Assembly: GCF_026712185.1 (NCBI RefSeq)
Contig: NZ_JAPPUX010000003.1
Coordinates: 1 to 64,000 of the forward strand
Source of the DNA: Nocardioides pini
GTDB taxonomy: Bacteria; Actinomycetota; Actinomycetes; Propionibacteriales; Nocardioidaceae
Direction of reading: 5' to 3'
DNA: 64,000 nt
Shown one piece after another: positions 38,398 to 62,169 of the stretch. The notes below the pieces were generated by a model. The model saw only the letters and a program-made list of their open reading frames with translations. It had not been told where the DNA came from and made no database searches. Numbering within the stretch: the stretch's first letter is position 1; each line of letters opens with the position of its first letter. The position numbers and the translations under genes were made by a program.

Positions 38398-38703
38398 ATG
38401 TGCGGAGCCAAGGAGGGCGGCCTGTCGCTCGACGGCGTCAACGTCGCCAAGGAAGCCGTGATCCAGGGGCAGGTGCTGCGCAGCGGTGACGAGCCGGTCG
38501 CCAACGCGTACGTCCGGCTGCTCGACCGCAGCGGCGAGTTCACCGCCGAGGTGCCGACGTCCGCGACGGGGCACTTCCGCTTCTTCGCCGGCGACGGCGA
38601 GTGGACGCTGCGCACCCTCGCGCCGAAGGCCCAGCCGGTCGACACCCGCGTCGTCGCCGCGACGGGCTCGGTGGCCGAGGTGCAGGTGCTCGTCAGCGCC
38701 TGA
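38398..38703 (+). CDS. DUF1416 (SseC-like) protein
   Basis: This 101-residue beta-sandwich protein begins MCGAKEGG and has a transthyretin-like fold. It is the constant partner of CysA2-type sulfurtransferases in actinobacteria (SseC). The conserved Cys2 may accept sulfur. It starts 1 nt after the sseA stop, and a strong terminator ends the operon. Confidence 0.9.
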   Translation: MCGAKEGGLSLDGVNVAKEAVIQGQVLRSGDEPVANAYVRLLDRSGEFTAEVPTSATGHFRFFAGDGEWTLRTLAPKAQPVDTRVVAATGSVAEVQVLVSA

Positions 38704-38730
38704 CCCGCGACTGGTCCAGACCAGGGAGGG

Positions 38731-38768
38731 ACGCCCCGCGCACCCAGCGCGGGGCGTTCCTCTCATTT
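38731..38768 (+). terminator. Terminator of the sulfurtransferase operon
   Basis: A perfect 11-bp stem ACGCCCCGCGC/GCGCGGGGCGT (38731-38741 and 38747-38757) with loop ACCCA is followed by TCCTCTCATTTT. It lies 27 nt after the DUF1416 stop. Confidence 0.88.
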
Positions 38769-38825
38769 TCGCCACCATTCCCCCACACCCCCGTTGCCGC
38801 CGTCGCGTGCGCCCTACCGTGGCGG

Positions 38826-38854
38826 TTCGGGCTGTGCGCCGGATTCGGGCTGTG
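38826..38854 (+). promoter_or_regulatory. Direct repeat upstream of the histidine kinase
   Basis: TTCGGGCTGTG occurs at 38826-38836 and 38844-38854, an 18-bp period, 20-48 nt upstream of the start. A -10-like TACCGT lies at 38815-38820. Two identical 11-mers in phase could be a regulator site, or the leader of a transcript from this -10. Confidence 0.35.
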
Positions 38855-38873
38855 TCGTGGAGAGTGGGTGGTG

Positions 38874-40361
38874 ATGGTCGCCGAGATCGCGCCTGCCGTC
38901 ACGCCCGGAGCCGACGAGCTCTGGCGACTGACCATGGAGCACTCGCCGGTCGGGATGGCGATCGTGTCCCCGACGGGCGGCTTCGTGACGGCCAACCTCG
39001 CGCTCTGCGAGATGCTCGGCCACGACGCCGACGTGCTGGTCACGAAGTCCTTCCAGGACATCACCCACCCCGATGACCTCGACGCCGACCTGCGCCTGTT
39101 CGAGCAGGCCCTTGCCGGAGAGATCAGCTCCTACCGGATCACCAAGCGCTACCTGCGCGCCGACGGCAGCGTCCTCGTGGGGGACCTGTCGGTGGCGCTG
39201 CTGCGCGACTCCCTGGGCGCCCCGATCCACTTCATCTCCCAGATCGTCGACCTGAGCGAGCGCCAGGCCTTCGTCGACCGGCTCGACGCCGCGGAGGCCG
39301 CGGCGGAGGCGGATCGTCGTACGGCCCAGGCGATCTTCGAGGGCGTCGCGGTCGGGCTGCTCCGGATCGACGGCGCGGGCCGCTACGTCGCGATGAACGG
39401 CCGGCACCGGGAGTTCCTCGCCCTCGCCTTCCCCGGTGGCCACCACGGCCAGGCCGGCCAGACCGGCTTCGCCTTCGGCGCCGACCAGCGCCCGCTCGAG
39501 CGCGACGACATGCCGTCGGTGCGCGCCTCACGCGGCGAGGAGTTCGACGACGTACGGCTGTGGGTGGGGGAGCACCCCCACGCGCGACGCGCGCTGTCGG
39601 TCTCCGCGCGGCGCGTGCTCGACCGCTCGGGCGAGCTCGCGGGTGCCGTCCTCGCCTACCACGACGTCACCGACCTGGTCCGAGCCATGGGTGTGAAGGA
39701 CGAGTTCGTCTCGACGATCTCGCACGAGCTGCGCACGCCGCTCACGGCGGCGCTGGCCTACCTCGAGCTGCTCGGCGAGTCGGGCGACGTCACGCCCGAG
39801 GTCCACCAGCAGGTGAGCGCTGCGAGGCGCAACATGCTCCGGCTCTCGCACCTGGTCGCCGACCTCCTCTTCACCACCCGCGTCTCGTCCGGCTCGCCGC
39901 TCGTCGACCCCTACCGGGCAGACCTGGCCCTGCTGCTGTGCGAGGCGGTCGACTCGGCGTCGCTCGCGGCCGACAGCCGGGGCGTGCGCATCGCGAGCCG
40001 GGTGCCTGAGGAGCTGTCGGCCGTCGTGGACGGGATGCGGCTGCGCCAGGTCTTCGACAACCTGCTCGACAACGCGGTCGACTACAGCACGTCCGGCGGC
40101 GTCGTCACGGTCGACCTGAGCCTGCGCGAGGAACGCATCGTGCTGACGGTGACCGACGAGGGCACCGGCATCGACCCGAGCGAGGTGGATCAGGTGTTCG
40201 ACCGGTTCTACCGAGGTGACAACGCCCGCCGGCTGCAGGTGCCCGGCACCGGCCTGGGCCTCACGATCGTGCGCAGCATCGTCGAGGCCCACGGGGGCGT
40301 CGTGTCGCTCGAGAGCACCCTCGGCGAGGGCACCAGCGTCTGCGTCATGCTGCCCCGCTGA
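38874..40361 (+). CDS. PAS-PAS sensor histidine kinase
   Basis: This 495-residue soluble kinase has two PAS domains (about residues 15-125 and 150-265), an H-box SHELRTPL (about His283) and a dimerisation helix. The catalytic ATPase domain holds N (QVFDNLLDNAVDY), G1 (DEGTGID) and G2 (GTGLGLTI) boxes. There is no membrane helix, so it senses an internal signal such as redox state or light. No response regulator is adjacent. GTG at 38871 is an alternative start. Confidence 0.92.
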   Translation: MVAEIAPAVTPGADELWRLTMEHSPVGMAIVSPTGGFVTANLALCEMLGHDADVLVTKSFQDITHPDDLDADLRLFEQALAGEISSYRITKRYLRADGSVLVGDLSVALLRDSLGAPIHFISQIVDLSERQAFVDRLDAAEAAAEADRRTAQAIFEGVAVGLLRIDGAGRYVAMNGRHREFLALAFPGGHHGQAGQTGFAFGADQRPLERDDMPSVRASRGEEFDDVRLWVGEHPHARRALSVSARRVLDRSGELAGAVLAYHDVTDLVRAMGVKDEFVSTISHELRTPLTAALAYLELLGESGDVTPEVHQQVSAARRNMLRLSHLVADLLFTTRVSSGSPLVDPYRADLALLLCEAVDSASLAADSRGVRIASRVPEELSAVVDGMRLRQVFDNLLDNAVDYSTSGGVVTVDLSLREERIVLTVTDEGTGIDPSEVDQVFDRFYRGDNARRLQVPGTGLGLTIVRSIVEAHGGVVSLESTLGEGTSVCVMLPR

Positions 40362-41983: not shown

Positions 41984-42493
41984 ATGAGCGAGCAGCTCAC
42001 CAGTCAGTCACGCTCGAACGAGAGCGGCATCACCCGTCGGACCGCGCTGCGTGGGGCAGCGTGGTCCGTATCGGCGGTCACAGTCGTCGTCGCGACGCCG
42101 AACATCGCGGCGGCGTCCGGGGGCGCCACGGGTACCGGCGGCGCTTCCTCGGCGAATCGCCAGGGAAACAATCTCGAGATCACGTCGTCGCTCACGGCCG
42201 GCCCTGTCGCGCTGAGCAGCATCGAGGCGATGGTGACCGTCTCTTTCGCGACCGTCGGTCCCACCATTGCGTCGACCAGCCTCAAGGGTCAGTCGCAGTG
42301 GAAGGCGACCGGCAAGACCGACTTCACGGCCACCTTCACCCTTGGCTCTCTCGCCGCTGGCACGAACGCGGCGTTCGAACCGATCCTCGGCCTCCAGAAC
42401 GCGAGCAGCGTCGCGGGCTCGTTCTCGATCAAGTACACGTGGTCCGGCAATGTCGATGGTGACACGGTGGGTGGCACCTTCACCAAGAATTGA
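41984..42493 (+). CDS. Tat-exported protein of unknown function
   Basis: This 169-residue protein begins with a twin-arginine signal (ITRRTALRGAAWSVSAVTVV), cleaved near residue 40. A Gly/Ser/Thr-rich beta-type domain follows (about 125 residues) without cysteines. No family is recognised. It lies between an EPS autokinase and the first PqqD/nucleotidyltransferase gene, with its stop directly abutting the end of that convergent gene. It may be a surface protein handled by the adjacent system, which is inference. Confidence 0.7.
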   Translation: MSEQLTSQSRSNESGITRRTALRGAAWSVSAVTVVVATPNIAAASGGATGTGGASSANRQGNNLEITSSLTAGPVALSSIEAMVTVSFATVGPTIASTSLKGQSQWKATGKTDFTATFTLGSLAAGTNAAFEPILGLQNASSVAGSFSIKYTWSGNVDGDTVGGTFTKN

Positions 42494-43973
42494 TCAGCTG
42501 CCCTCGGACCGTCGGAGCCGAACGATGACGTCTCCAACTCGCTTGGCCAGCGCCGACGAAACGGTCGAGATCGCATTCGTCGAGGTGAACTCAGCGGTGA
42601 CCCATGGGGGGAGCGCGCTCCTGCTCAGCAGGCGCGCTCCCTCTATGGGGGACGCACCCGTGCGAGCCGCGCCGCGCAGCCCGAGGAGGAAGTTGATCCC
42701 CGGCACAGCGAAAGGCTGGTGTGCAGGGGCGGTCATCACCTGATCCCGGCACACGTGGCGCCACAGCTCCGGGCCGACGGCGTCCGCAGCCTTGTCGGCG
42801 ATCGATGGCATGGTCGAGGTCCTTCCAAACATGCGGACGGCCAGGCCCACCGACAGCAGTTCGTCTGCTCGCAGTCGTCGATCGGCGCTGAGCCACGTAT
42901 TGCGGCGGGCCGCCAGCACGTGAACATCAAGCAGGCTTCGCATCCATCTCCACCTGTCCTTCGCGGCGTGACCGGCCGAGTGTGCCAAGGCGTCGTATCC
43001 GGACAGGGTGGGTGTCGGATGGCCGTCGACATGCACGTCCTGGTGCCGCCCCCACAACGTGTCGAAGTCCGGGAAGGTGCCGCGGGTCGGCACCAAGTGC
43101 CAGTGGAGGTCGATGTCTGTACTCGACCCGTTGAGCAGCAGCTCGTTGCCGGTGCGCACGAGGTGGCGCCACGCCCAAGACGGACCTGGCATCGGGTAGC
43201 CGGGAGCCGGCGCCCAGCCAGCGGAGGCGAGTACTCGGTGAGCTCGCTCGAGATCTTTCGGGTCCACCAGGACATCCAGGTCGCCGGCCCCACGAAGCGC
43301 GAAGTCTTCATAGGCCTGAGCCGACAGCGCCACCCCTTTGAATGCGAGAGCTCGCACTGCGGCGTCGCGAAGGGCCGTCAGAGCTACAGACAGGTCGGCC
43401 GCCAGCACCACCGCGCCAGCGTGTTGCCGACCCGGCCGCGGCTTCCAGCTCCGACCTCGCCTGTCCGGGAATGTCGAGGCGGTCGAGGTTGGCGGCCAGG
43501 TATGGAACGACGTGGTGTTGGAGTGCTGCCTCCACGAGCCCTTGTGGGCTCAGCGAGTCAGGCGCCACCCATCGCCGGTCGCCATCGGAGCGCAGGTGTC
43601 GTAGGGCGTCGCGCAGCGCGGTCACCGCGCTTTCGGGATCGTTCCGGGCAGGGCCAACCCCGCGCACCTTGCCCTGCGGTGACGGCTCGTGCGGCGACTG
43701 GTCCCCCTCCACCACGACGAGCACCCTGTGTGCCACGAGGTCCCAGACCTGCTGCTTGGTGAGGTCTTCCGGCGACTCGTGCCCGTCGGGTGGGCCGAAG
43801 GTTGCGACGACGTGGTCGGTCACTGCCCGTAAAGAGACGGCCGTGCCTTCGGGCACGGCTTCGAGGATGACAGTTGCGATCGGGGACAGTCCGAGGACGC
43901 TCTCGTCCACCATGACGACGCTGCGGTCGTCCTCGACGTAGTGGTCGGTCAGCATCCCGCGCCGGACGATCAC
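42494..43973 (-). pseudogene. PqqD-like/nucleotidyltransferase fusion, frameshifted
   Basis: Two overlapping reading frames together match the intact gene at 49600-51048. The 5' part (43973 down to about 43420) encodes the PqqD-like region (MIVRRGMLTDHYVEDDRSVV, then a helical linker). The 3' part (readable from 43411 to 42494) encodes the nucleotidyltransferase (AFKGVALSAQAYED, AGDLDVLVDPKDLE, TDIDLHWHLVP). One base appears to be missing around 43410-43450. Both halves keep good coding character, so a recent mutation or a sequencing error is possible. PF14907-type nucleotidyltransferases accompany HprK-like kinases in peptide and EPS loci. Confidence 0.72.
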
Positions 43974-44728
43974 TCGGGCACCGCCAGGAGCTCAGAAAGC
44001 ACTGGCGTGAGGTCGGCTGACTCGGCGTAGCGGACGTGTCGCGCCCCGCCGACGAGGTGGATCAGCTCGGCCAGGCGGTGAAGGGGCTTGTCCATGCTGG
44101 GCAGGTAGGACGACTGCGGTGCGATGGCAGCGATGGCGTCCACGGTCTCGAGTCGCTCGACGACCGGCTCGCCCTCGTGGCGGGGATCCCGCTCGATGAC
44201 GAGCAGGGCGCCCAACCGACACTCGCGCTCGGAGGTGAGCAATCCGAGCTCGGACGGCGCGACCTGCTTCTTGAGGTGGCCACCGTCGATGATCGACAGC
44301 GGCTTGCGGTAGGCGAGCACGACACCGTCCGGGGTGATGGCCGAGGTCTCGTCGGTGAGGTACGCGAACGTCTTCCCCAAGGTCACCGACGCCGTTGTCT
44401 TGCCGGTGCCGGAGGCCGCGACCAGCACGGCCGTGCGCCCGGTCGCAGGGTCAGCAAGGGCGGCGGCGTGCAGCATGACGAGCTCGCCGGCCCGGGAGTC
44501 GATCGCGGCCGTGGTGACGGCCGGGGACAGGTAGTGAAGAGCGCTCGCGACGTCTGTGCCACCCGCCTCGACTGCATCGGTGGTCGGCTGCGCGTCCGTG
44601 AGGGCGTCGCGCCACGCATCCAGGACCGCGTCGCGCAACGCGTCGGGGGCGCGGATCGGCACGATGACCCCGAAGGCCGAGACGTGGGCGACGACTTCAG
44701 CGTCGGTCGCGATCTCGGTGCTGGACAT
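43970..44728 (-). CDS. HPr-kinase-like (HprK-related) protein
   Basis: This 252-residue protein has an HprK/P-type P-loop AASGTGKTT (Walker A, about residues 105-113), YLTDETSAI after it, and the conserved LSIIDGGHLKK and PLHRLAELIHLV segments. Relatives phosphorylate peptides or proteins in lasso-peptide and EPS loci; the substrate here is unknown. A TAGGGT -10 element (minus strand, 44741-44736) lies 7 nt before the ATG, so the transcript is probably leaderless. The stop overlaps the downstream PqqD/nucleotidyltransferase start (ATGA), showing coupled expression. Confidence 0.82.
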   Translation of the reverse strand: MSSTEIATDAEVVAHVSAFGVIVPIRAPDALRDAVLDAWRDALTDAQPTTDAVEAGGTDVASALHYLSPAVTTAAIDSRAGELVMLHAAALADPATGRTAVLVAASGTGKTTASVTLGKTFAYLTDETSAITPDGVVLAYRKPLSIIDGGHLKKQVAPSELGLLTSERECRLGALLVIERDPRHEGEPVVERLETVDAIAAIAPQSSYLPSMDKPLHRLAELIHLVGGARHVRYAESADLTPVLSELLAVPE

Positions 44729-44772
44729 GTGCGCAACCCTAGGCGGACAGGACGAGCTTGCCGGTCGGGATG

Positions 44773-44810
44773 AAGAAAAGAATGGGCCCCCCGCGTGGGG
44801 TGCGGGGGGC
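44773..44810 (-). terminator. Minus-strand terminator upstream of the HprK-like gene
   Basis: On the minus strand a 9-bp stem GCCCCCCGC/GCGGGGGGC with a 7-nt loop is followed by CCATTCTTTTCTTC, a good intrinsic terminator. It would stop transcripts coming from the regulator at 46563-45205, which would run antisense across the small peptide gene. The HprK-like promoter lies just downstream. Confidence 0.65.
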
Positions 44811-44889
44811 TCCGGACGCTCCGTGGGGTGAAGCGCATTTCTTGGCTCGTCGTGGGGGGCACGGAACGAGCAGACGTCTCGGCGGGGGC

Positions 44890-44951
44890 GTTTGCCAATC
44901 TGTCTTGACTGAGTTTGCCAGACACGGCGCGCTCGCGCAGCATTTTTGACA
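44890..44951 (+). promoter_or_regulatory. Promoter/operator region of the small peptide gene
   Basis: GTTTGCCA occurs at 44890-44897 and 44913-44920 (23 bp apart), the second as TTTGCCAGA. A TTGACT (44905-44910) lies between them, and a perfect -35 TTGACA lies at 44946-44951, 67 nt before the ATG. No convincing -10 is seen. The same TTTGCCAGA motif is in the promoter of the convergent regulator, suggesting a shared operator. The 289-nt gap 44729-45017 holds this region and the minus-strand terminator. Confidence 0.5.
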
Positions 44952-45017
44952 CAATCGCCGCGAGCGACGATTCCCCGTGTCGCTCGGTCAGCACACACCC
45001 CACATAGGAGTCACCCC

Positions 45018-45137
45018 ATGAAGAACATCGCTCGCATCGTCGTTGCCGCCACCGCCGTCGTCAGCCTGGCCGGCGTGGCTGCTGCTCCTGCGACTGCAGC
45101 CCCCAAGGAGGCGCAGCGCAACGTGTGGTGCTGCTGA
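45018..45137 (+). CDS. Small secreted peptide precursor (ends WCC)
   Basis: This 39-residue peptide has a classical Sec signal: MKNIAR, a hydrophobic core VVAATAVVSLAGVAAAP and a cleavage site near ATA-AP. It leaves a tail of about 12 residues, PKEAQRNVWCC. ATG at 45018 has GGAG seven bases upstream (45007-45010) in a good position. Two adjacent C-terminal cysteines after Trp are unusual and could form a disulfide, bind metal or be modified. It lies between an HprK-like kinase gene and a convergent XRE/TPR regulator, so it may be a pheromone or a RiPP-like precursor. Family unrecognised. Confidence 0.65.
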   Translation: MKNIARIVVAATAVVSLAGVAAAPATAAPKEAQRNVWCC

Positions 45138-45178
45138 CGCACACGGCTTCTCAGAGCCTGGTCGTCTCGACGCTCCGG

Positions 45179-45199
45179 CGTGCGGCCCGAGACCGCACG
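45179..45199. terminator. Hairpin between the convergent peptide and regulator genes
   Basis: A 7-bp stem CGTGCGG/CCGCACG surrounds a 7-nt loop between the peptide stop (45137) and the regulator stop (45205). It is short, has no T-tract and could serve either direction. Confidence 0.4.
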
Positions 45200-45204
45200 A
45201 CATC

Positions 45205-46563
45205 TCACACTCTGGTCGGAGAGACGACCGTCGTACGGGTGCGGAGCCCCGTCGAGGCCGCTGCGCGACGGTACGCGTCGCGGGCGGCCTCGGCCAGGTC
45301 GACGCTCTCGAGGAGGCTGGCCAGGTCGAACCAGAGCTGGGCCGCAGCCTTGTCGGCACCGATGGCCGACAGTCGCAGGACCGCTTGCTGGTAGAAGGTG
45401 GCGGCCTCGTCCATTCGGCCTTCGGCAGCGCACGTACGACCAGCGAGGGTCAGCGCTTCCGCCTCTGCCAACGGGGCGTGTCCGCTCGACGTGACCTCGA
45501 CCTCGCCGATCAGGTCCCGCGCCTGCTCCAGCTCGCCTGACAGGTAAGCAGCGCGAGCGAGGCCGAGCAGAGTCCATGCGCGGTCCGTCGGCGAGGCGCT
45601 GCTCCATTCCATCTCGGTGACTGCCCGGGTCAGGTTCTCTCGAGCCTCGTCTACCGCAGGCGGGTCGAGCTCGAGCTGCAACCTGCCGACCTCGGTGCGC
45701 AAGCGAGCCAGGTTACGTGCATCCTGGCCCTCGCTCAGCAGTGACAACGCTCGCTCAGCGAGGGGCACCGCAGCCACGATGTCGCCGCGGTTGGCCTGCA
45801 TGACGCTGGCGTTCCAGTACGCCGACGCGCGTGCTCGCGGGGAGTCGAGAGTCTCCGCCTGAGCGATGGCCTTGCTGCAGAGCCGCACGGCGTGGGCCGT
45901 GTCGCCTCGCTCGAAGTAGGCCGCCGCGACCGTGACCGAGAGCTGAACAGCCTCGTCGCTCGCGTCGAGGCCGGCGGCGCTGAGCTGGGACAGTACGTCC
46001 TCGCCGCAGGTGATCGCACGGCCCAGGTCGCCGGTCTCTCGGTGGATGCGGCTGAGCGCGATGCCGGCCTTGATGCGGCTGACCCCGCTCACGGTGCTGT
46101 CCTCGAGCAGCGTCTCGAGCTCGATGATGGCGTCGTCCTCGCGGCCGCTCGCCTCCAGCGACCGAGCGTGCAGGAGCTTGGCGCGCTCGCGCATACCAGT
46201 CCCGGCCACGTCGTCCACCCGGCTGAGCGCTGTGTGCAGGTGCTGGGCAGCTTCAGCGGGCTCGCCGGACTCGAGGGCCAGCTCGGCGTAGTCGAGGGCG
46301 AGACGAACCTCATCCGGGTCCTGCCCGGGCTCGGCTGCGAGCAGGGAGTCGATCGACACGTCGAGTCGCGCGGCGAGCGCGACGAGTGCCTTCACCGTCG
46401 GGCGGCGAGCGCCGGTTTCCAAGCGCGAGAGGTAGGCAACCGACATCGTGTCACCCACCACCTCGCCCTGGGTGAGCCCACGTGCGACGCGGATCGAGCG
46501 AAGGCGACGACCCAAGTCGTGGGCGTCGGCCTGGGCTAGCAGTTCGGCCTGACGTGCGTCCAT
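45205..46563 (-). CDS. XRE-HTH regulator with TPR domain (RRNPP-like architecture)
   Basis: This 452-residue regulator has an N-terminal XRE helix-turn-helix (residues about 14-72, RLRSIRVARGLTQGEVVGDT then MSVAYLSRLETGARRPTVKAL). A long array of TPR-like helices follows (ALDYAELALESGEPAEAAQH, ARASAYWNASVMQANRGDIV and others). Rap/Rgg/NprR/PlcR/PrgX-type proteins with this layout are switched by small peptides. The ATG lies 6 nt after a CACAAT -10 (minus strand), so it is probably leaderless. The adjacent small secreted peptide is the natural candidate ligand, which is inference. Confidence 0.83.
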   Translation of the reverse strand: MDARQAELLAQADAHDLGRRLRSIRVARGLTQGEVVGDTMSVAYLSRLETGARRPTVKALVALAARLDVSIDSLLAAEPGQDPDEVRLALDYAELALESGEPAEAAQHLHTALSRVDDVAGTGMRERAKLLHARSLEASGREDDAIIELETLLEDSTVSGVSRIKAGIALSRIHRETGDLGRAITCGEDVLSQLSAAGLDASDEAVQLSVTVAAAYFERGDTAHAVRLCSKAIAQAETLDSPRARASAYWNASVMQANRGDIVAAVPLAERALSLLSEGQDARNLARLRTEVGRLQLELDPPAVDEARENLTRAVTEMEWSSASPTDRAWTLLGLARAAYLSGELEQARDLIGEVEVTSSGHAPLAEAEALTLAGRTCAAEGRMDEAATFYQQAVLRLSAIGADKAAAQLWFDLASLLESVDLAEAARDAYRRAAASTGLRTRTTVVSPTRV

Positions 46564-46909
46564 CCGGCCATTGTGAGGGTCGAGCGAGCCGAGTTGTTGA
46601 ATTCTGGCAAAACTGATCGTCAGGTTTGCCGAAGATGATCAAGTTGAACGGCAGGGTGCCCCGTTGGGGTGAGACGACTCGCTGCCTGAGCGTCGAGGCG
46701 GAACTTGTCCGTGACTCAAAGCGTCGACCCCCCCTCAGGGGTGTGTTCCGGGTAACCCGTGAGGAACAGCACGCCCTGAAGTCTGGTCGCATTTGTCCAA
46801 GTTTCCGCCAACCGGCCAGTAGTCGCTTAACGTATGCGTGTCAGTCAGGGGTTGGTTGACGCCGTTAAGTGGGCTCGTCTCGGGCTCGAAGTCATCCGTG
46901 GGGGATGCA
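46564..46909. promoter_or_regulatory. Divergent region between the regulator and sugar transferase genes
   Basis: This gap holds the regulator promoter: CACAAT at 46575-46570 on the minus strand, 6 nt before its ATG. An inverted pair TTCTGGCAAA (46602-46611) and GTTTGCC (46624-46630) follows; its minus-strand reading TTTGCCAGA is shared with the peptide promoter. Further right, CTTAACG (46826-46832) and CGTTAAG (46863-46869) form an inverted pair upstream of the sugar transferase, whose ribosome-binding site is GGGGGA. No gene is supported in the gap. Confidence 0.5.
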
Positions 46910-49599: not shown

Positions 49600-51048
49600 T
49601 CACCGCCGAGCAGCGCGGCCAACTCGGCGTCCCACGAACTCATGTGCTCGGTGAAAGGCCGCTTGCGATAGGGCGACAGTCGCGCGACTCGAAGTGCACC
49701 GAGCTAGCGCCCACGGAGGTAGTAGGTCAGCGATCAGTCGCCGGATGAGATCTTCGAGGCTGGCCCCAGACTTGCCGAGGCTCACAACCGCACGGAAAGT
49801 CGTCAACATCGGCAGTCCAGTCGTGCGCTGACCGGGGTGTTCCTGACCAAGTTGTGCCCGTAGCGCTCGACGAAGAGTTCGGTCGTCAACCATCGTTGCC
49901 GCGTGTCGGGTGATCGGATGGCTGCCAGGAGGAAGGCCCAGCAGACGCGCTGCGACGCCGATGGTTGTCAACTGGTCTCGCGACAACTCCCGGTTCATAT
50001 CGGCCCACGTGCTGGGCATGCACATGAGGCGGTGTACGTCGGCGATCCCTCGCACCCACCTCCAGCCGTCCCTGGCAGAATGGGAAGCTGAGTGAGCGAA
50101 TGCATCAAACGGCCCCAGCGTGGCAACGTCGTGTGAAGCGATCTGGATCGTCGCCCTCCGCGACCACAGGGTGTTGAAGTCCGGCAGCGCGCGCCGGACG
50201 GGGCCCAAGTGCCAGTGCAGGTCTATGGACGTGGAGGAACGCACGAGGGTCAGTTCATGATGTGTGCGCATGAACTGTTGCCATCCCCAGCTGGTTCCGG
50301 GTGCTGGGTACGAGGGCGGAACCTGCCATCTCGCGTGGACGAGACATAGCGCCGTCTCGTCAAGATCGTCGGGGTGGACCAGTAGGTCGAGATCGCCGTA
50401 ACCGCGAACCAAGTGGTCTCCCCAAGCTTGAGCGGCGAGAGCGAAACCCTTCACGACGAGCACTCGGACGCCGCGAGCCTCGAGAAGGTCTAGAACCTGG
50501 ATCAAATCGTCTGCAACGGGGGCGTTCGCGGCCACCATCTCAACGTGCGATGCGCGCAGCCTGGCTCGCAAGGCTGGGGGGAAAGCCAGATGCTCATCAT
50601 GGGAGGCAAGTTGCGAGATGACGCGATGACGTTTCGCAATGGCGTAAAACGCCGAGGTCGGGACCGCCGCGCCAAGATGCCACCGGCGGGCCACCGCCGG
50701 GGCCAAAGTGGTAGCGCCCACTGCACCATGAAGTAGTCGCAGCACTGCCTCGTCGGTTAGTCGCGTCTCCTCGTAGAACTCGTCGTCCAGCGTCACCAGG
50801 TTGTGTGCGGCGAGGTCGTGCAGTTGCTCCGTGATCGCATCCCGCGCGTCTGCTGCGCCCGGAGGAAGTCCGTGCGCGCTGATGACAGCATGCACCACAT
50901 CTTCGACGTCCACCTCCGCCTGCTCCGGCACACAGTCCAAGATGGTGGCCGCCACCTCGCTTAGGACGAGAACTCGTGCGGCGATCACGACGACGCTGCG
51001 GCCTGCGTCGCGGTACTCGTCATCGATCGGTCCGCGCGCCACTTTCAC
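49600..51048 (-). CDS. PqqD-like/nucleotidyltransferase fusion protein (PF14907 type)
   Basis: This 482-residue protein is an intact copy of the frameshifted gene at 42494. The N-terminal 90 residues are PqqD-like (SVVVIAARVLVLSEVAATIL). The rest holds the nucleotidyltransferase features VLVVKGFALAAQAW, YGDLDLLVHPDDLDE and STSIDLHWHLGP (Asp residues for metal). The GTG start overlaps the stop of the two-domain glycosyltransferase (GTGA), so it is the last gene of the minus-strand EPS operon. The target is unknown; peptide or glycan modification are options. Confidence 0.8.
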   Translation of the reverse strand: MKVARGPIDDEYRDAGRSVVVIAARVLVLSEVAATILDCVPEQAEVDVEDVVHAVISAHGLPPGAADARDAITEQLHDLAAHNLVTLDDEFYEETRLTDEAVLRLLHGAVGATTLAPAVARRWHLGAAVPTSAFYAIAKRHRVISQLASHDEHLAFPPALRARLRASHVEMVAANAPVADDLIQVLDLLEARGVRVLVVKGFALAAQAWGDHLVRGYGDLDLLVHPDDLDETALCLVHARWQVPPSYPAPGTSWGWQQFMRTHHELTLVRSSTSIDLHWHLGPVRRALPDFNTLWSRRATIQIASHDVATLGPFDAFAHSASHSARDGWRWVRGIADVHRLMCMPSTWADMNRELSRDQLTTIGVAARLLGLPPGSHPITRHAATMVDDRTLRRALRAQLGQEHPGQRTTGLPMLTTFRAVVSLGKSGASLEDLIRRLIADLLPPWALARCTSSRATVALSQAAFHRAHEFVGRRVGRAARR

Positions 51049-53027
51049 AGTGACTGGGCCTTCTTGGCGGCGCCCGCCCGTTGACCTTCTCCGGGCGTCG
51101 GAACGGTCGATCGACCCTTCGAACTCCACTCTCGTCCGGTGGCCGGTCTGGGGCCAAAACCGCCGAGGAGACCATCGCGCAATCCCGCCAGCGAAGCGGC
51201 AGCTTTGTCTCGACGGTGTGTCTCGACTGTGGCGGCGAGGATGTTGGCGACGACGGTCTGCCTCAGAGTTCGCACGAGCCAGCGCGGCTCGGTCCTGCCG
51301 TAGCGACGTGCAAGCAAGCAACGGTTTCTGTTCATGTAGTACCGCCGGAACGCTCCATGGGACGTCGCCAAGGGTGCAAACGGACCCACCCGGAAGAGCG
51401 GCGCGGATGTGCCACCGCCGAGTACATGCTCCATCGCGACGTCTCGATGTATGCCTACCCTCAAGCCGGATCGCCGCGCACGCAGGCAATACTCGGTATC
51501 GACGCCATCGATGAACAGCGACTCGTCGAAGAGCCCCAGCGTGGTGATCGTCGTGGACCTCATAGTCATTCCGCTTTGCAGGATCTCGTCTACGGCACCG
51601 CGCGAATCACTCGAATAACGGACACCTGGCAAGGTGCCCGGTCCAACCAGATCGAAGCGACCCGTCTCGACATAGCCACGCAGCGCAACCAGCGAACGAC
51701 CATCAAGTTGCGAATCCTGATCCAGTGTAGTCAGGACCTGTGCACCATGCTCCAAAGCAAATAGAATTCCTGTATTGAGGGCAAATGCGATGCCAGAGTT
51801 AACTGGGGAAATGAGGCCCGAGGAGTCGTCAATGGGTTGATTCAAGGACGCCGAGCCGTCGTCAACGAATACAACATTTGCGACGTCGGCAAGCGCTGCA
51901 GCGGTCGACCTGAGGGCTTCGATGTCAGCCTGATAGACCGGGATTACCACCCAGTGAGTTCGTCCTTTGGCAATGCTAGTCCACACTGAGCGAGCTCTCA
52001 GATTTCGCGATTCGGTCGCGTTCGGCGCCCTGTCGGGTGAGTGGAGACTTGCAAGAAGGACCGAACGCTTCTTGCGCTGGGCTCGTCGCCCTCGTGCTGC
52101 TTCTTTGAGCCCCGGGAGAGACCCTCGCTCGCGAGTCAAAACCGCGGCAATTACGACTAGATCGCGCAATACGGATCGCGTGATGGAGCCAGGACGGTTC
52201 GCAAAACCATGTCGGGAGAGCAAGAGAAAGCGGTTCTGGACGCTCAACTTGTTAGTTATCGGATTGCGTCGAGACGTTCCAGGCGACCCACGATAATGCT
52301 TTGCTACAGGAGCGTTTAACACGAAGCTGCCAATACCCAACATGCCTGCCCGCAGCCCAAGCTCCGCGTCCTCACGATATGCGATGAAGTCCTCGTCGAA
52401 GAACTCGCCCGACCGGTCGCAGATCTGCTGCCAAGCCGCCCGCGGGACCCCGAGCAGCGCGCCCGTGATTCCTGGAACTTGGAAGTCTGCTGGCCCTTCT
52501 CGCAAAGTCCCGAGCGGACTCCCGTGAAGGTCGTCCACATGCCGCGCGTCAGGTGTCCAGACAATGCCAGCGCTGTCGATCAACTGCTCCTTCGAATCTC
52601 CTGAGCGACTGCCGAACAGGAGTATCCCCGAAAAGAGATGCTGATCGGACTTGTCGGCGGAAAGGCGTATCAAAGCCTCAACGCCACCTGGGAGAAACTG
52701 GAGGTCAGGATTGGTGACGAGAACATGCGACGCACCTCGTGCAAAGGCAAAACGGAGCGCCAAGTTGTGACCGCCAGCGAACCCGAGGTTCCGCCCTTGG
52801 CCAAGGATTCCACATTTCTCTTTGAGGTCGGTCGGCACAAGTTCATAGAGCTCGTCTTCGCTGAGCGTGTCGCAATTGCGCACCAACAAGATAGCTGACA
52901 GTGGATGTTCTCTGAGCGAATTCAGGGTGGCTCGAAGCAGTGGAACGTCCGGCCGGTATATCACAAGACTCACAACCAAGCTGGTACTGTCGCGCAATCC
53001 TTGGGAGTTGCGCGTCGTAGGCAACAT
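51045..53027 (-). CDS. Two-domain GT2-type glycosyltransferase
   Basis: This 660-residue protein fuses two GT-A domains. The first (about residues 15-270) has VVSLVIYRPDVPLLRATLNSL, NLGFAGGHNLAL and VTNPDLQF (DxD-like). The second (about 335-600) has WVVIPVYQADIEALRS, VFVDDGS and TLDQDSQLD, the rhamnosyltransferase-like layout. It may add two successive sugars in one polypeptide. The codon use is visibly less GC-rich than in flanking genes. The start lies 6 nt after the polymerase gene. Confidence 0.85.
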   Translation of the reverse strand: MLPTTRNSQGLRDSTSLVVSLVIYRPDVPLLRATLNSLREHPLSAILLVRNCDTLSEDELYELVPTDLKEKCGILGQGRNLGFAGGHNLALRFAFARGASHVLVTNPDLQFLPGGVEALIRLSADKSDQHLFSGILLFGSRSGDSKEQLIDSAGIVWTPDARHVDDLHGSPLGTLREGPADFQVPGITGALLGVPRAAWQQICDRSGEFFDEDFIAYREDAELGLRAGMLGIGSFVLNAPVAKHYRGSPGTSRRNPITNKLSVQNRFLLLSRHGFANRPGSITRSVLRDLVVIAAVLTRERGSLPGLKEAARGRRAQRKKRSVLLASLHSPDRAPNATESRNLRARSVWTSIAKGRTHWVVIPVYQADIEALRSTAAALADVANVVFVDDGSASLNQPIDDSSGLISPVNSGIAFALNTGILFALEHGAQVLTTLDQDSQLDGRSLVALRGYVETGRFDLVGPGTLPGVRYSSDSRGAVDEILQSGMTMRSTTITTLGLFDESLFIDGVDTEYCLRARRSGLRVGIHRDVAMEHVLGGGTSAPLFRVGPFAPLATSHGAFRRYYMNRNRCLLARRYGRTEPRWLVRTLRQTVVANILAATVETHRRDKAAASLAGLRDGLLGGFGPRPATGREWSSKGRSTVPTPGEGQRAGAAKKAQSL

Positions 53028-55669: not shown

Positions 55670-56689
55670 TTAAAGCGGCCCGCCCTCGCCGAAAATGCGC
55701 CGAACTTCCCGGCGCAGGATCGACTTCTCCTCGCGGATTGCACCTCGGTAGACGTCTTGTCCCGCAAGCATCGCTGTCGGGTCTTCGTCGCACTCAATTA
55801 TCCTACGAGCGACAGCCTTAGGCCCGTCGACTAGGCGAAACTTGTGACTACTCGGTAGCGGAACATCATTGTTGTCGTTTCCGGATCCCTTTTGTGATAC
55901 AAGAACGATGCAGCCCAATGCGGCAGCCTCGCGGGGAATGCGGTCCTTTCCAGGGTGGTGCCCTGCGTCGACGTAGACTTGGGCATGGGAGAGAACGTCC
56001 TTTATCTCGGAGGAGTCCATGCCTTTCAGTCGGATCACAGACATGGACGGCGGGAGGTGAGTTTGCACCGCAGCCATAAAGTCTCCGCCTTTGGCCGGAT
56101 TGTATGCGACGCCATTTCGGGCGTGGACCGCGGCGGGCTCGGTTACCGGGAACGTGATGTAGTCGGACAACATGTATCCATCTGCATGAAGCATCCGACC
56201 CACCTGGGTACGTGCGTACGAGGACTGGAAAAGGTGAACGATGGAGCGATCTTCTCGGAGTTTGGAACGCAACCTTCGTGCCCTCAATAGACGCACAATC
56301 ACGCGCGGAATGTCTCGTAAACGTCTGACGCCGTGATGGCCTCGGCGCCAGCCGCGGAAGGAGAAAAAGACCGGTGAATTATCTATGCTCAGCCACCAGA
56401 TTGCACGCTTTGGGTAGCGGCTGGTGATGGCAAGCTCAGGGTAAATCTCTGGAACGACCAAGACCTCAGTTAGTGGATGCTCCATGAGCCCGGTTTCGGG
56501 GCACTCGTAACTGGCGAACTCCATAACTGGCTCTGCTTCGGAGGTCGCTGGGTGCGGCACGACGAAAGCGTCTCGCCTCAATTCGCTTCTTATGCAACTC
56601 ACTAGTTGATGGATGGCCTCTGGCCCGCCAGTCTTCAACCCCTTATGGAAAACGACGTGAACCGGGGGGAGCGCTGTGTTCACGGTCAC
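55670..56689 (-). CDS. Glycosyltransferase-like protein of the EPS operon
   Basis: This 339-residue protein has a GT-B-like pattern: an N-terminal VHVVFHKGLKTGGPEAIHQL segment, then LVVPEIYPELA, and a C-terminal DAGHHPGKDRIPREAAALGC segment in the place of the usual E-x7-E region. It is less GC-rich than its neighbours. The GTG start overlaps the cysN stop by 4 nt (GTGA), so cysN and this gene are translated together. Donor and acceptor are unknown. Confidence 0.75.
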   Translation of the reverse strand: MTVNTALPPVHVVFHKGLKTGGPEAIHQLVSCIRSELRRDAFVVPHPATSEAEPVMEFASYECPETGLMEHPLTEVLVVPEIYPELAITSRYPKRAIWWLSIDNSPVFFSFRGWRRGHHGVRRLRDIPRVIVRLLRARRLRSKLREDRSIVHLFQSSYARTQVGRMLHADGYMLSDYITFPVTEPAAVHARNGVAYNPAKGGDFMAAVQTHLPPSMSVIRLKGMDSSEIKDVLSHAQVYVDAGHHPGKDRIPREAAALGCIVLVSQKGSGNDNNDVPLPSSHKFRLVDGPKAVARRIIECDEDPTAMLAGQDVYRGAIREEKSILRREVRRIFGEGGPL

Positions 56690-57990
56690 GTCCCGCTGTT
56701 GATCATCCCTGCCCCGACGGTGACGCCGGTGGCCTCGTCGATCAGGATGAACGAGCCCGTGGTGCGGTTCTTCGAGTACGGGTCGCAGAGCAGCGGCACG
56801 GTGGTGCGCAGCTGGACGCGGCCGATCTCGTTGAGCGCGAGCTCGCCGGCCTCCTGGTCGCGGTGCAGGGAGTTCACGTCGAGGCGGTACTGGATGTCCT
56901 TGACCATCGCGCGGCCCATGCGGGTCGTGTGCTTGATGGCGAGCTTCTGGCGCGGACGCAGCGGCTCGGTGGTCATCCAGCAGATCATCGCGTCGATGTC
57001 CTGGCTGGGCTTGGGCGCGTTCTTCGGGCGGGCGATCATGTCGCCGCGGGAGACGTCGACGTCGTCCTCGAGGTGGATCGTCACCGACATGGGCGGGAAC
57101 GCCTCGGGGATCTCCTGGTCGAAGAGCTCGACCTTGGAGATGGTCGACGTCATGCCGCTGGGCAGCACGACGACCTCGTCGCCCTTCTTCAGCACGCCGC
57201 CGGCCACCTGACCGGCGTACCCGCGGAAGTCGTGATACTGGTCGGACTTGGGGCGGATGACGTACTGCACCGGGAAGCGGGTGTCCACGAGGTCGCGGTC
57301 GGAGGCGACGTGGACGTGCTCGAGGTGGTGCATGAGCGTCGGGCCGGAGTACCACGGGGTGTTCTCGGAGCGGTTGACGACGTTGTCGCCCTGCAGCGCC
57401 GAGATCGGGATGACCTCGAGGTCGGGGATGTTGAGCTTGGTCGCGAACGTCGTGAACTCGCGGTGGATCTTCTCGTAGACCTCCTCCGACCAGTCGACGA
57501 GGTCCATCTTGTTGATCGCCAGCACGAGGTGCGGGACGCGCAGCAGCGAGAGCAGCACCGCGTGGCGGCGCGACTGCTCAGTGAGGCCCTGGCGGGCGTC
57601 GACCAGGACGAGGCCCAGGTCGGCGGTCGAGGCGCCGGTCACCATGTTGCGGGTGTACTGGATGTGGCCCGGGGTGTCGGCGATGATGAACTTGCGGTTG
57701 GGCGTCGCGAAGTAGCGGTAGGCCACGTCGATGGTGATGCCCTGCTCGCGCTCGGAGCGCAGGCCGTCGGTCAGCAGCGCCAGGTCGGTGTAGTCGTAGC
57801 CCTTGGACTGGCTGGTCGACTCCACCGCCTCGAGCTGGTCCTCGAAGATCGACTTCGAGTCGAGCAGCAGGCGCCCGATGAGGGTCGACTTGCCGTCGTC
57901 GACGGAGCCGGCGGTCGCGAACCGCAGCAGGTCGGCGTTCTCGGTGACAGCGGCAGCTTCCTCGCCGGCCGTGGTGGTCTGGTCGGCCAT
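56686..57990 (-). CDS. cysN: Sulfate adenylyltransferase large subunit (GTPase), CysN
   Basis: This 434-residue EF-Tu-like GTPase has G1 GSVDDGKST (about residues 28-36), G2 QGITIDVAY, G3 DTPGH and G4 NKMD, followed by two beta-barrel domains. There is no C-terminal CysC kinase. With CysD it makes adenosine phosphosulfate (APS) from sulfate and ATP, driven by GTP. Its ATG overlaps the cysD stop by 1 nt, and its own stop overlaps the EPS glycosyltransferase start, placing sulfate activation at the head of the EPS operon. Confidence 0.96.
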   Translation of the reverse strand: MADQTTTAGEEAAAVTENADLLRFATAGSVDDGKSTLIGRLLLDSKSIFEDQLEAVESTSQSKGYDYTDLALLTDGLRSEREQGITIDVAYRYFATPNRKFIIADTPGHIQYTRNMVTGASTADLGLVLVDARQGLTEQSRRHAVLLSLLRVPHLVLAINKMDLVDWSEEVYEKIHREFTTFATKLNIPDLEVIPISALQGDNVVNRSENTPWYSGPTLMHHLEHVHVASDRDLVDTRFPVQYVIRPKSDQYHDFRGYAGQVAGGVLKKGDEVVVLPSGMTSTISKVELFDQEIPEAFPPMSVTIHLEDDVDVSRGDMIARPKNAPKPSQDIDAMICWMTTEPLRPRQKLAIKHTTRMGRAMVKDIQYRLDVNSLHRDQEAGELALNEIGRVQLRTTVPLLCDPYSKNRTTGSFILIDEATGVTVGAGMINSGT

Positions 57991-58904
57991 CAGAAGTAGC
58001 CCTCCTTCTTGCGGTCTTCCATGGCGGCCTCGGAGAACCGGTCGTCGCCACGGGTCGCGCCGCGCTCGGTCACTCGCGCCACGGCGATCTCTTCGATGAT
58101 TGCGGCGGTGTCGGTGGCCTCGGACTCCACGCAGCCGGTCTGGGTGCGGTCACCCACGGTGCGGAAGCGGACCATCCTCGTCTCGACCTTCTCGCCGCCC
58201 TTGGGCTGGATCTCCGGGCCGAGCGACAGCAGCATGCCGTCGCGCTCGATGACCTCGCGCTCGTGGGCGAAGTAGATGGAGGGGATCTCGATCTGCTCGC
58301 GGTGGATGTAGCTCCAGATGTCGAGCTCGGTCCAGTTCGACAGCGGGAAGATGCGCATGTGCTCGCCGGCGTGGATGCGGCCGTTGTAGAGGCTCCACAG
58401 CTCGGGGCGCTGGTTCTTCGGGTCCCACTGGCCGAAGTCGTCGCGGTGGGAGTAGACGCGCTCCTTGGCGCGGGCCTTCTCCTCGTCGCGGCGTCCGCCA
58501 CCGAAGGCGGCGGTGAAGCCGTTCTCCTCGATGGCGCCGAGCAGGGTGCCGATCTGCATGCGGTTGCGGCTGGTCTTGCCGTCGTCGACGACGTGACCCG
58601 CCGCGATCGCCTCGTCGATCGTGGCGACGATCATCCGGGCGCCCAGCCGCTCGACCCACGAGTCGCGCGTGGACAGCACCTCGTCGAAGTCGAGGCCGGT
58701 GTCGACCTGGAGCAGCGGGAAGGGCAGCTTGGCCGGGAAGAACGCCTTCTCCGCCAGCCGGAGCATGACGATGGAGTCCTTGCCACCGGAGAACATCAGG
58801 ACCGGCTTCTCGAACTCGGCGGCGACCTCACGGAAGATGTGGATCGACTCGGCCTCGAGCTGGTCCAGCTGACTCAGCTGGTAGTCGACGTGGGTGTTGG
58901 TCAT
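57990..58904 (-). CDS. cysD: Sulfate adenylyltransferase small subunit, CysD
   Basis: This 304-residue PP-loop enzyme is of family length. Its SGGKDS motif (about residues 39-44), DTGLDFDE, AFGGGRRDEEKARAKERVYS and WTELDIW segments are all typical of CysD. It adenylylates sulfate. It is the first gene of the minus-strand operon that runs through the EPS genes. A possible -10 TACGAT lies at 58948-58943 on the minus strand. Confidence 0.96.
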   Translation of the reverse strand: MTNTHVDYQLSQLDQLEAESIHIFREVAAEFEKPVLMFSGGKDSIVMLRLAEKAFFPAKLPFPLLQVDTGLDFDEVLSTRDSWVERLGARMIVATIDEAIAAGHVVDDGKTSRNRMQIGTLLGAIEENGFTAAFGGGRRDEEKARAKERVYSHRDDFGQWDPKNQRPELWSLYNGRIHAGEHMRIFPLSNWTELDIWSYIHREQIEIPSIYFAHEREVIERDGMLLSLGPEIQPKGGEKVETRMVRFRTVGDRTQTGCVESEATDTAAIIEEIAVARVTERGATRGDDRFSEAAMEDRKKEGYF

Positions 58905-61014: not shown

Positions 61015-62169
61015 TCAGACGCGGTCGAGGACGCCGACCTCGACGAGGTCGTCGACGTGGGTCTGCACGAGTGACCGGGCGTCACCGGACTCCGGCTCGC
61101 CGAACTCGACGAGGAGGGCCTCGGCGAGCTGGTCCAGCGTCGCGGAGCCCTCGCCGAGCAGGGTCAGGATGCGGGTGGCGAGGAACGACAGCGCGACGAC
61201 GCTCTCGCCGAGCATCACGCAGCCGATGCCGTCGCTGACGTGGAAGTCGACGAACTCGCGCCGGCGTACGCGCTCACTGCCGTCGGCCGTGTCGGGACCG
61301 AGGAGCTCGACGACGGTCGGCTCGGGGGCCGGCGCCACCTCGACGTCTCGGACCGGCGGGTGGTTGAGCAGCTGCTGGGTGACCGCGACGAGGTCGTCGG
61401 CCTCGCGGTAGTCGACGCGGTGCACGGCCCCGACCTCCTCGACGAGGGCGGCCAGCCGGTGCAGCGGCTTGTCGAGCGAACGGAGGTAGGACGCGTTGCC
61501 CGACAGGTGGGCGATCGCCTCCGCGGTGGGGAGCTCGGTGAGGACGGGCGGGACGAAGTCCTCGCTGTGGCGCTCCAGCAGCAGCACCGCAGCCGGGCGC
61601 AGGTCGCCGGGCGCCTCGCGGAGGCCGAGGTCGTCCGGGGACTGCAGTCCCAGCCCGGGCTCGTCGGCGGAGACGAGCGGCTTGCTGTAGGCGACCAGGT
61701 CGAGCGACGTGGTGAAGGCGACCGTGTCGTCGGTGACGTAGCCGAAGTGGCGCGCGAGGGTGCGGGCGGCCGTCGAGCGGCCGCTGCCGGCGGGCCCGAC
61801 GAGCACGACGCACCTGCCGGTCTCCGGGTCGGCCACGGCCGCCGCACGGAGCATCAGCAGGTCGCCCTCGTTGGCCTCCATCGCCTGGAGGGTGACGGCG
61901 AGCGCGACCTGGTCGCCGACGACGGGCCCGCTGGGTCCGGCGATCGCGCCGTGCGCAGCAGCGTCGTCGATCACGGCGGGGTCGTCGTCGACCAGCACGC
62001 GCACCGTGCGTCCTTGCGCGTCGTCGACCCGCCGGGCGTCGCAGCGCGACCACGCGCGGAGCAGGTCGTCGGCGATGCTGCCGGCGTTGCCCCCGGCGAC
62101 CTCGACGTGGACCTGCGTCCCGAGAGCGGTGACGGCGACGACGTGGCGAGGGCTGGCCGAGAGGGTCAC
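61015..62169 (-). CDS. HprK-like kinase fused to a C-terminal PqqD-like domain
   Basis: This 384-residue protein has an HprK-type P-loop GPAGSGRST (Walker A), [23 protein letters not shown], then a linker and a C-terminal PqqD-like domain ([20 protein letters not shown], then [16 protein letters not shown]). It combines the two elements that are separate genes at 43970-44728 and in the PqqD/nucleotidyltransferase genes. No nucleotidyltransferase is adjacent. The GTG start at 62169 is close to a divergent BKACE gene. The substrate is unknown. Confidence 0.82.

Follow-up and report, generated by a model that had tools for sequence, protein, structure and literature searches.

Peptide signalling of the RRNPP (or RRNPPA) type is known from Bacillota pairs such as PlcR–PapR, NprR–NprX, Rap–Phr, PrgX–cCF10, Rgg–SHP and ComR–ComS, in which a receptor with helix-turn-helix (HTH) and tetratricopeptide-repeat (TPR) domains is encoded next to a small Sec-type propeptide gene. 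A section of PMC10075063 defines RRNPP(A) pairs by a receptor of 250–500 amino acids (aa) with HTH and TPR domains and a propeptide gene of 10–100 aa at −60 to 400 bp. Actinobacterial signals are given as typically small molecules in an excerpt of the same source, and as γ-butyrolactones (GBLs) and cyclic or modified peptides in an excerpt of PMC4748050; a term search of PMC9765709 returned no mention of Actinobacteria. Among the matches listed from the open-licence literature, none describes a secreted linear peptide with a cytoplasmic HTH–TPR receptor in this phylum, and a description elsewhere is possible. Here we analysed a gene pair of Nocardioides pini (Actinomycetota), found in the first 64,000 nt of one contig (NZ_JAPPUX010000003.1; hereafter the window) of a 4.5-Mb genome. 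It has the appearance of a peptide-signalling pair not described before, of a kind otherwise known chiefly from Bacillus and related bacteria. The pair and its putative control sites are as follows:

45018-45137, + strand: peptide gene, 39 aa, with a Sec-type signal sequence and a short mature part ending Trp-Cys-Cys
45006-45010, + strand: ribosome-binding site AGGAG, 7 nt upstream of the peptide ATG
44891-44920, + strand: putative operator TTTGCCA-N16-TTTGCCA with a degenerate TTGAC copy between, preceding the peptide gene (promoter comparison by eye)
45205-46563, - strand: XRE-type HTH and nine-TPR regulator, 452 aa, putative peptide receptor
46606-46630, - strand: inverted repeat GGCAAAC-N12-TTTGCC preceding the regulator gene, putative autoregulatory site

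The two genes lie tail to tail, with stop codons 67 nt apart. Both the regulator (452 aa, HTH and TPR domains) and the peptide (39 aa, 67 bp away, secretion being read from its sequence) fall within the RRNPP(A) ranges, and on this layout we filed the pair as RRNPP-like. A first-pass annotation of the same DNA had named a secreted WCC peptide and an XRE-HTH/TPR regulator of RRNPP layout; both are present, and they form a unit. Unlike the Bacillota systems, the pair belongs to Actinomycetota, has nine TPRs in its predicted receptor and is mostly arranged tail to tail, and its peptide binding and import are putative. We know of no RRNPP pheromone with a C-terminal Cys-Cys. Our favoured explanation, to which we assign a probability of roughly 0.62, is an autoregulated pair of a secreted peptide and a cytoplasmic receptor that works in an RRNPP-like manner and has a near-obligatory Cys-Cys end.

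The peptide, MKNIARIVVAATAVVSLAGVAAAPATAAPKEAQRNVWCC, begins with basic residues, followed by a hydrophobic core and an Ala-x-Ala site, and its last residues are NVWCC; its mature part would be about APKEAQRNVWCC, with the cleavage position placed from these features. To follow the gene across relatives, we used two sets of loci around regulator homologues of 30–91% identity: 60 regions (L032–L091), chosen from 77 regulator places after removal of short fragments, a number of weak places and the window's own, and 80 named loci (L122–L201). The genomes of the two sets overlap (for example, L032 and L124). Each locus was scanned for open reading frames (ORFs) of 25–75 aa with a signal-like core and an exact Cys-Cys terminus within 700 nt of the regulator. 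Such an ORF was found in 44/60 and 59/80 loci, giving 87 distinct peptides, and in 47/60 and 60/80 when one extra residue after the Cys-Cys was permitted. Most relatives that keep the regulator thus keep the peptide frame, the point on which the first-pass annotation had staked its case, and for these two genes the case holds. Eleven other terminal doublets, run as controls, occurred in 0–3 of the 60 loci each. Near regulators there were 51 Cys-Cys ORFs in ~84 kb, against 0 in 545 kb farther away (60-locus set), and 65 in ~112 kb, against 1 in 968 kb (80-locus set). That single signal-like ORF far from a regulator (L194:1255-1371, ending HPCC) may be an orphan peptide.

An ORF lying between convergent genes could also be a chance product, or part of a shared bidirectional terminator. 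The simple string TGCTGCTGA and the use of TGC TGC for the Cys-Cys in 83 of 88 distinct genes would both fit such an origin, which we nonetheless consider scarcely credible, given the enrichment near regulators, a promoter box of the gene's own (see below) and three further observations. First, the ORF is under purifying selection (pN 0.122, pS 0.287, pN/pS 0.43, Jukes–Cantor dN/dS 0.37; 12 disjoint equal-length pairs of 60–99% identity). Second, gene order is convergent in 42/44 and 48/59 paired loci, tail-to-tail order being almost universal in Nocardioidaceae, whereas Jiangella-type loci are head to head, so the pairing is no by-product of a single arrangement. Third, the residue preceding the Cys-Cys varies among the 87 peptides (W in 54, G in 7, Y in 7, and others). 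The constancy of the Cys-Cys itself has to be read with its role as the search criterion in mind. The pair was also found in Frankiales records and in one Streptomyces (L186).

Two or three different peptide copies are present at each of seven distinct loci (ten rows in the scan reduce to seven, since L045 and L046 were listed again as L140 and L143, and L082 contributes a single ORF beside two regulators). In six of the seven, the last five residues are common to all copies; the exception, L091, combines two regulators with two peptide endings. Only in L044 and L141 does the remainder of the mature part differ much while the C-terminal five residues are alike, as expected of a ligand. Ending classes also track the regulator phylogeny, with 14 changes on a quick tree against a shuffled mean of 26.2; here the class 'none' means no exact Cys-Cys ORF within 700 nt, so that L051, L080, L089 and L090 were scored as none.

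The regulator matched HTH_31 (1.7e-11), HTH_3, TPR_12 (1.2e-15) and TPR_2 above the Pfam cut-offs. In its AlphaFold2 model (pLDDT 89.3, pTM 0.73), the HTH is followed by nine helix pairs, the predicted TPRs. As would suit an RRNPP-like protein, PlcR was the best natural match in the Protein Data Bank (PDB) by sequence-profile search (E 8.4e-15), and Rap and NprR were among the top structural matches: Rap–CSF (Z 25.6, root-mean-square deviation (r.m.s.d.) 6.2, 342 residues aligned), RapF–peptide (Z 24.8, r.m.s.d. 6.7, 347 aligned) and NprR (Z 24.5, r.m.s.d. 6.7, 347 aligned). According to passages of PMC3601957, the A helices form the concave face of the TPR superhelix, where Rap proteins bind peptide, and a strictly conserved groove Asn in Rap holds the peptide backbone. 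We aligned 58 regulators (the window protein and those of 57 among the 80 named loci, omitting wrong-frame picks, truncated genes and near copies) and found Tyr249, Trp250 and Asn251 invariant in 58/58. Asn251 lies in helix A5 and is a candidate counterpart of RapF Asn227. Among TPR positions, 11 polar or aromatic residues were conserved at the level of at least 90%, 10 of them in A helices and 0 in B helices; at the 85% level the count was 12 in A against 2 in B (P = 0.012, Fisher exact test). The conserved residues thus fall on the inner side of the predicted groove.

A distant similarity in the TPR part links the regulator to the NsdA family of Streptomyces (NF053720; E ≤ 1e-5 in 20 of the 58 regulators, 1.2e-7 for the window protein), although the window protein scores 31.6 bits against a curated cut-off of 75. 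NsdAsr is described as a negative regulator of rimocidin production (PMC12243394). Four loci of the weaker class (L247, L250, L253 and L256; group f20, taken as Streptomyces), which may or may not encode NsdA, had no Cys-Cys peptide. A second regulator copy, often shorter, adjoins the full one in L058, L063, L073, L074, L077, L082, L088 and L091, and is perhaps a partner or antagonist. We also considered and rejected two mobile origins. The 36 plasmid records matching the regulator were all below 60% identity (31 from Streptomyces), and the single phage record, at 86.5% identity, was an unannotated faecal contig that we take for chromosomal DNA. Against PHROGs, the regulator gave nine weak matches, mostly to its HTH part, and the peptide gave 0.

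Upstream of the peptide gene lies the repeat TTTGCCA-N15/16-TTTGCCA, and the peptide promoters of close relatives, which are Nocardioides species, share the order TTTGCCA, a TTGCC-like copy and TTTGCCA when compared by eye. The pattern TTTGCCA-N{12,18}-TTTGCCA was present in 12/15 close genomes, with 12 of its 13 matches at the peptide promoter and one match in the N. pini genome; its reversed control had 0 matches in the 15. A shorter core with one mismatch permitted was found in 14/15 genomes, with 14/15 matches at the peptide gene and 4 for the reversed control. In a more distant promoter set (69 promoters, some loci repeating a genome), TGGCAA was the most frequent enriched hexamer, in 36/69 against 6.2 in base shuffles. 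The inverted repeat on the regulator side uses the same half-site and had 1 match in the window, against 0.00 expected in shuffles. On the simplest reading of these boxes, the regulator would control the peptide gene and perhaps itself, a putative self-regulation that again resembles RRNPP systems.

In the mechanism we propose, the small precursor would be exported by Sec and cut after the Ala-x-Ala site. The signal would be a short C-terminal piece ending Cys-Cys (here about ...RNVWCC), which may re-enter the cell, probably via an oligopeptide permease (Opp); the genome encodes one SBP_bac_5 peptide-binding protein. The extended peptide would then bind the concave groove of the neighbouring regulator's TPR superhelix and alter its hold on the TTTGCCA boxes before the peptide gene and before its own gene. 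Export, processing, re-import and binding are steps that we infer from the genes, as are the direction of regulation and any further targets. Should the two genes indeed work together, a compact signal–receptor switch would be present in dozens of Nocardioides species and their relatives, some of them with multiple copies. A small synthetic ligand and a single promoter box make the pair directly testable, and its constant Cys-Cys terminus poses a chemical question that is new. A wider reading, to which we give a fairly low probability, is a widespread actinobacterial class in which a cytoplasmic TPR receptor reads a secreted linear peptide with an obligatory C-terminal Cys-Cys (as vicinal disulfide, dithiol or metal-bound form), the signal reporting cell density together with thiol/redox or metal state.

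Several observations weigh against the favoured pair. The signal sequence was judged by a simple hydrophobicity rule rather than a trained predictor. The regulator model matched the eukaryotic protein LGN as well as it matched Rap and NprR (Z 26.1, r.m.s.d. 4.8, 320 aligned), reflecting a generic TPR superhelix, so that the fold by itself does not prove RRNPP membership. The pattern derived from relatives' regulator promoters matched in 1/15 genomes only, and the regulator-side box is therefore less conserved. No exact Cys-Cys ORF was present beside 16/60 and 21/80 regulators, which are scattered on the quick tree. A looser rescan of these found a Cys-Cys followed by a tail in L080, L089, L090, L171, L191 and L195 and a peptide farther off in L051/L150, and left most peptide-less regulators without a candidate. 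Outside the class, 3/25 loci had a candidate peptide in 1.5-kb flanks. Two regulators outside the 58-member alignment, L106 and L108, carry Glu in place of Asn251 and have no adjacent Cys-Cys peptide; assigned to family f18 with in-frame stops reported, they align stop-free over residues 18–435 of a relative.

Some of these exceptions are of interest in themselves. The coincidence of Glu at position 251 with a missing Cys-Cys peptide in L106 and L108 may point to a link between residue and peptide. In two Streptomyces loci (L191:11325-11477 and L195:11608-11802), a downstream Sec-like ORF on the opposite strand has an internal GPGPCC and a tail, possibly a variant with non-terminal Cys-Cys. 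At L246:1229-1327, L252:2315-2407 and L240:2959-3060, in genomes outside the class, regulator relatives are accompanied by short ORFs with the endings APWPHCC, APWPPCC and APFPGCCG, respectively, which suggests that the pair extends beyond the class.

A broad quorum-sensing role is challenged chiefly by the lack of other operator copies. In the 15 close genomes, the operator-pattern regulon search returned only the peptide gene and single stray matches; the full operator hardly occurs elsewhere, and the search revealed no downstream regulon. This leaves room for two other readings. In one, the peptide acts outside the cell as an effector (antimicrobial, envelope-active or metal/thiol-reactive); the regulator senses some other cue and only switches the peptide gene on and off, so that the peptide could itself be the output. 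Flanking genes speak to both sides of this reading. Clustering of the ORFs that flank the pair in part of the loci, with eight near copies omitted, gave six clusters present in at least 6 loci, which were identified by eye and without a family search: ABC-type ATPases, the close-clade histidine kinase, paralogues of the regulator, an NAD-epimerase-like protein from a single clade and two frames that are likely spurious. By this inspection, the recurrent neighbours include no importer, protease or modification gene, as would suit an effector, but no immunity or export gene either. The constant ends of the L044 and L141 copies and the groove-side position of the conserved receptor residues also favour a ligand, and we judge an effector unlikely.

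The second reading takes the Cys-Cys (as vicinal disulfide, thiolate or metal ligand) to be the chemically sensitive part, through which the peptide informs the regulator of thiol or metal conditions in the envelope. It draws on the Cys-Cys as the sole feature kept across 87 varied peptides, which was a search criterion, yet one that none of the eleven other doublets approached. Regulators also often carry Cys173 (37/58) and Cys229 (44/58), and in 9 of 13 close relatives (L033–L045) the genes cysD and cysN are found upstream of the regulator gene, which may be chance. However, neither receptor Cys is invariant, a point that also counts against the favoured pair, and the sulfate-assimilation neighbour was found, among the fetched loci, in the close clade only. 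We consider such a reporter less probable still than an effector, and continue to prefer the autoregulated peptide–receptor pair.

The remaining genes around the pair are these:

43970-44728, - strand: HprK-like protein, outside the peptide–regulator pair
42494-43973, - strand: PqqD-like and NTP_transf_5 nucleotidyltransferase, frameshifted, outside the peptide–regulator pair
38601-40361, + strand: PAS histidine kinase, adjoining the peptide gene in 13/13 close relatives (L033–L045)
56686-58904, - strand: cysN and cysD, adjoining the regulator in 9/13 close relatives; here polysaccharide genes intervene

The first-pass annotation had joined the HprK-like kinase and a PqqD/nucleotidyltransferase fusion to the pair as one peptide-modification or exopolysaccharide (EPS)-gating system. 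A kinase gene is indeed present, although its similarity to the HPr-rel-A component HprK_rel_A (TIGR04352) is weak (E = 1.4e-4, 21.1 bits against a cut-off of 200), and its start is likely the ATG at 44728 instead of the GTG at 44998. The PqqD-like part likewise stays far below the cut-off of PqqD_rel_X (TIGR04353; E = 0.0015, 19.5 bits against 35), and the nucleotidyltransferase matches PF14907 (E = 4e-32). Both parts of the proposed fusion exist, but their frames overlap by ~100 nt out of register (43308-43411). In L032, the nearest of the fetched relatives, they form a single continuous frame, so a frameshift near 43411 breaks the fusion in the window; it is either real or a sequencing error in the record.

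Conserved linkage does not support a four-gene system. Searched with the window proteins, the three enzyme genes adjoin the pair in 1/60 relative loci, namely L032, and no modification enzyme was recognised by eye among the six recurrent clusters, so that lasso-type kinase and nucleotidyltransferase tailoring, as known from clusters for ribosomally synthesized and post-translationally modified peptides (RiPPs), finds no counterpart there. Across 197 family genomes, HprK-like matches occurred in 41, regulator matches in 53 and both in 19; in 17 of these 19, the compared matches were at least 24 kb apart or on different contigs (24–73 kb apart in 11). Co-occurrence was nevertheless somewhat above chance (P = 0.0027, Fisher exact test, without kinship correction), a loose regional link that may reflect a common chromosomal site or a function. 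This and the adjacency in the window and L032 speak for a joint system, as do polysaccharide-type genes beside the regulator in 5/14 close relatives (a sugar transferase in L032, L033 and L039, a chain-length type in L034 and L036). Set against the near absence of adjacency elsewhere, they leave it very improbable, and we rejected it; by gene order, the kinase and nucleotidyltransferase neighbours are bystanders of the pair. A link of the pair to EPS may exist but is unproven.

The histidine kinase gene of the 13 close relatives lies just upstream of the peptide gene on the same strand. In the window, this gene and cysD/cysN are both present but separated by ~16 kb; genes of chain-length, glycosyltransferase, HprK/PqqD and nucleotidyltransferase type lie in the interval and surround the pair. 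Polysaccharide genes were therefore probably inserted on both flanks of an older pair. The polysaccharide region also encodes another HprK-like protein, PqqD-like in its C-terminal part (61015-62169), and a second NTP_transf_5 nucleotidyltransferase (49600-51489). Finally, beside the kinase cluster, a 169-aa protein at 41984-42493 has a Tat-motif-like start and no family match, and a relative occupies the same position in L032.

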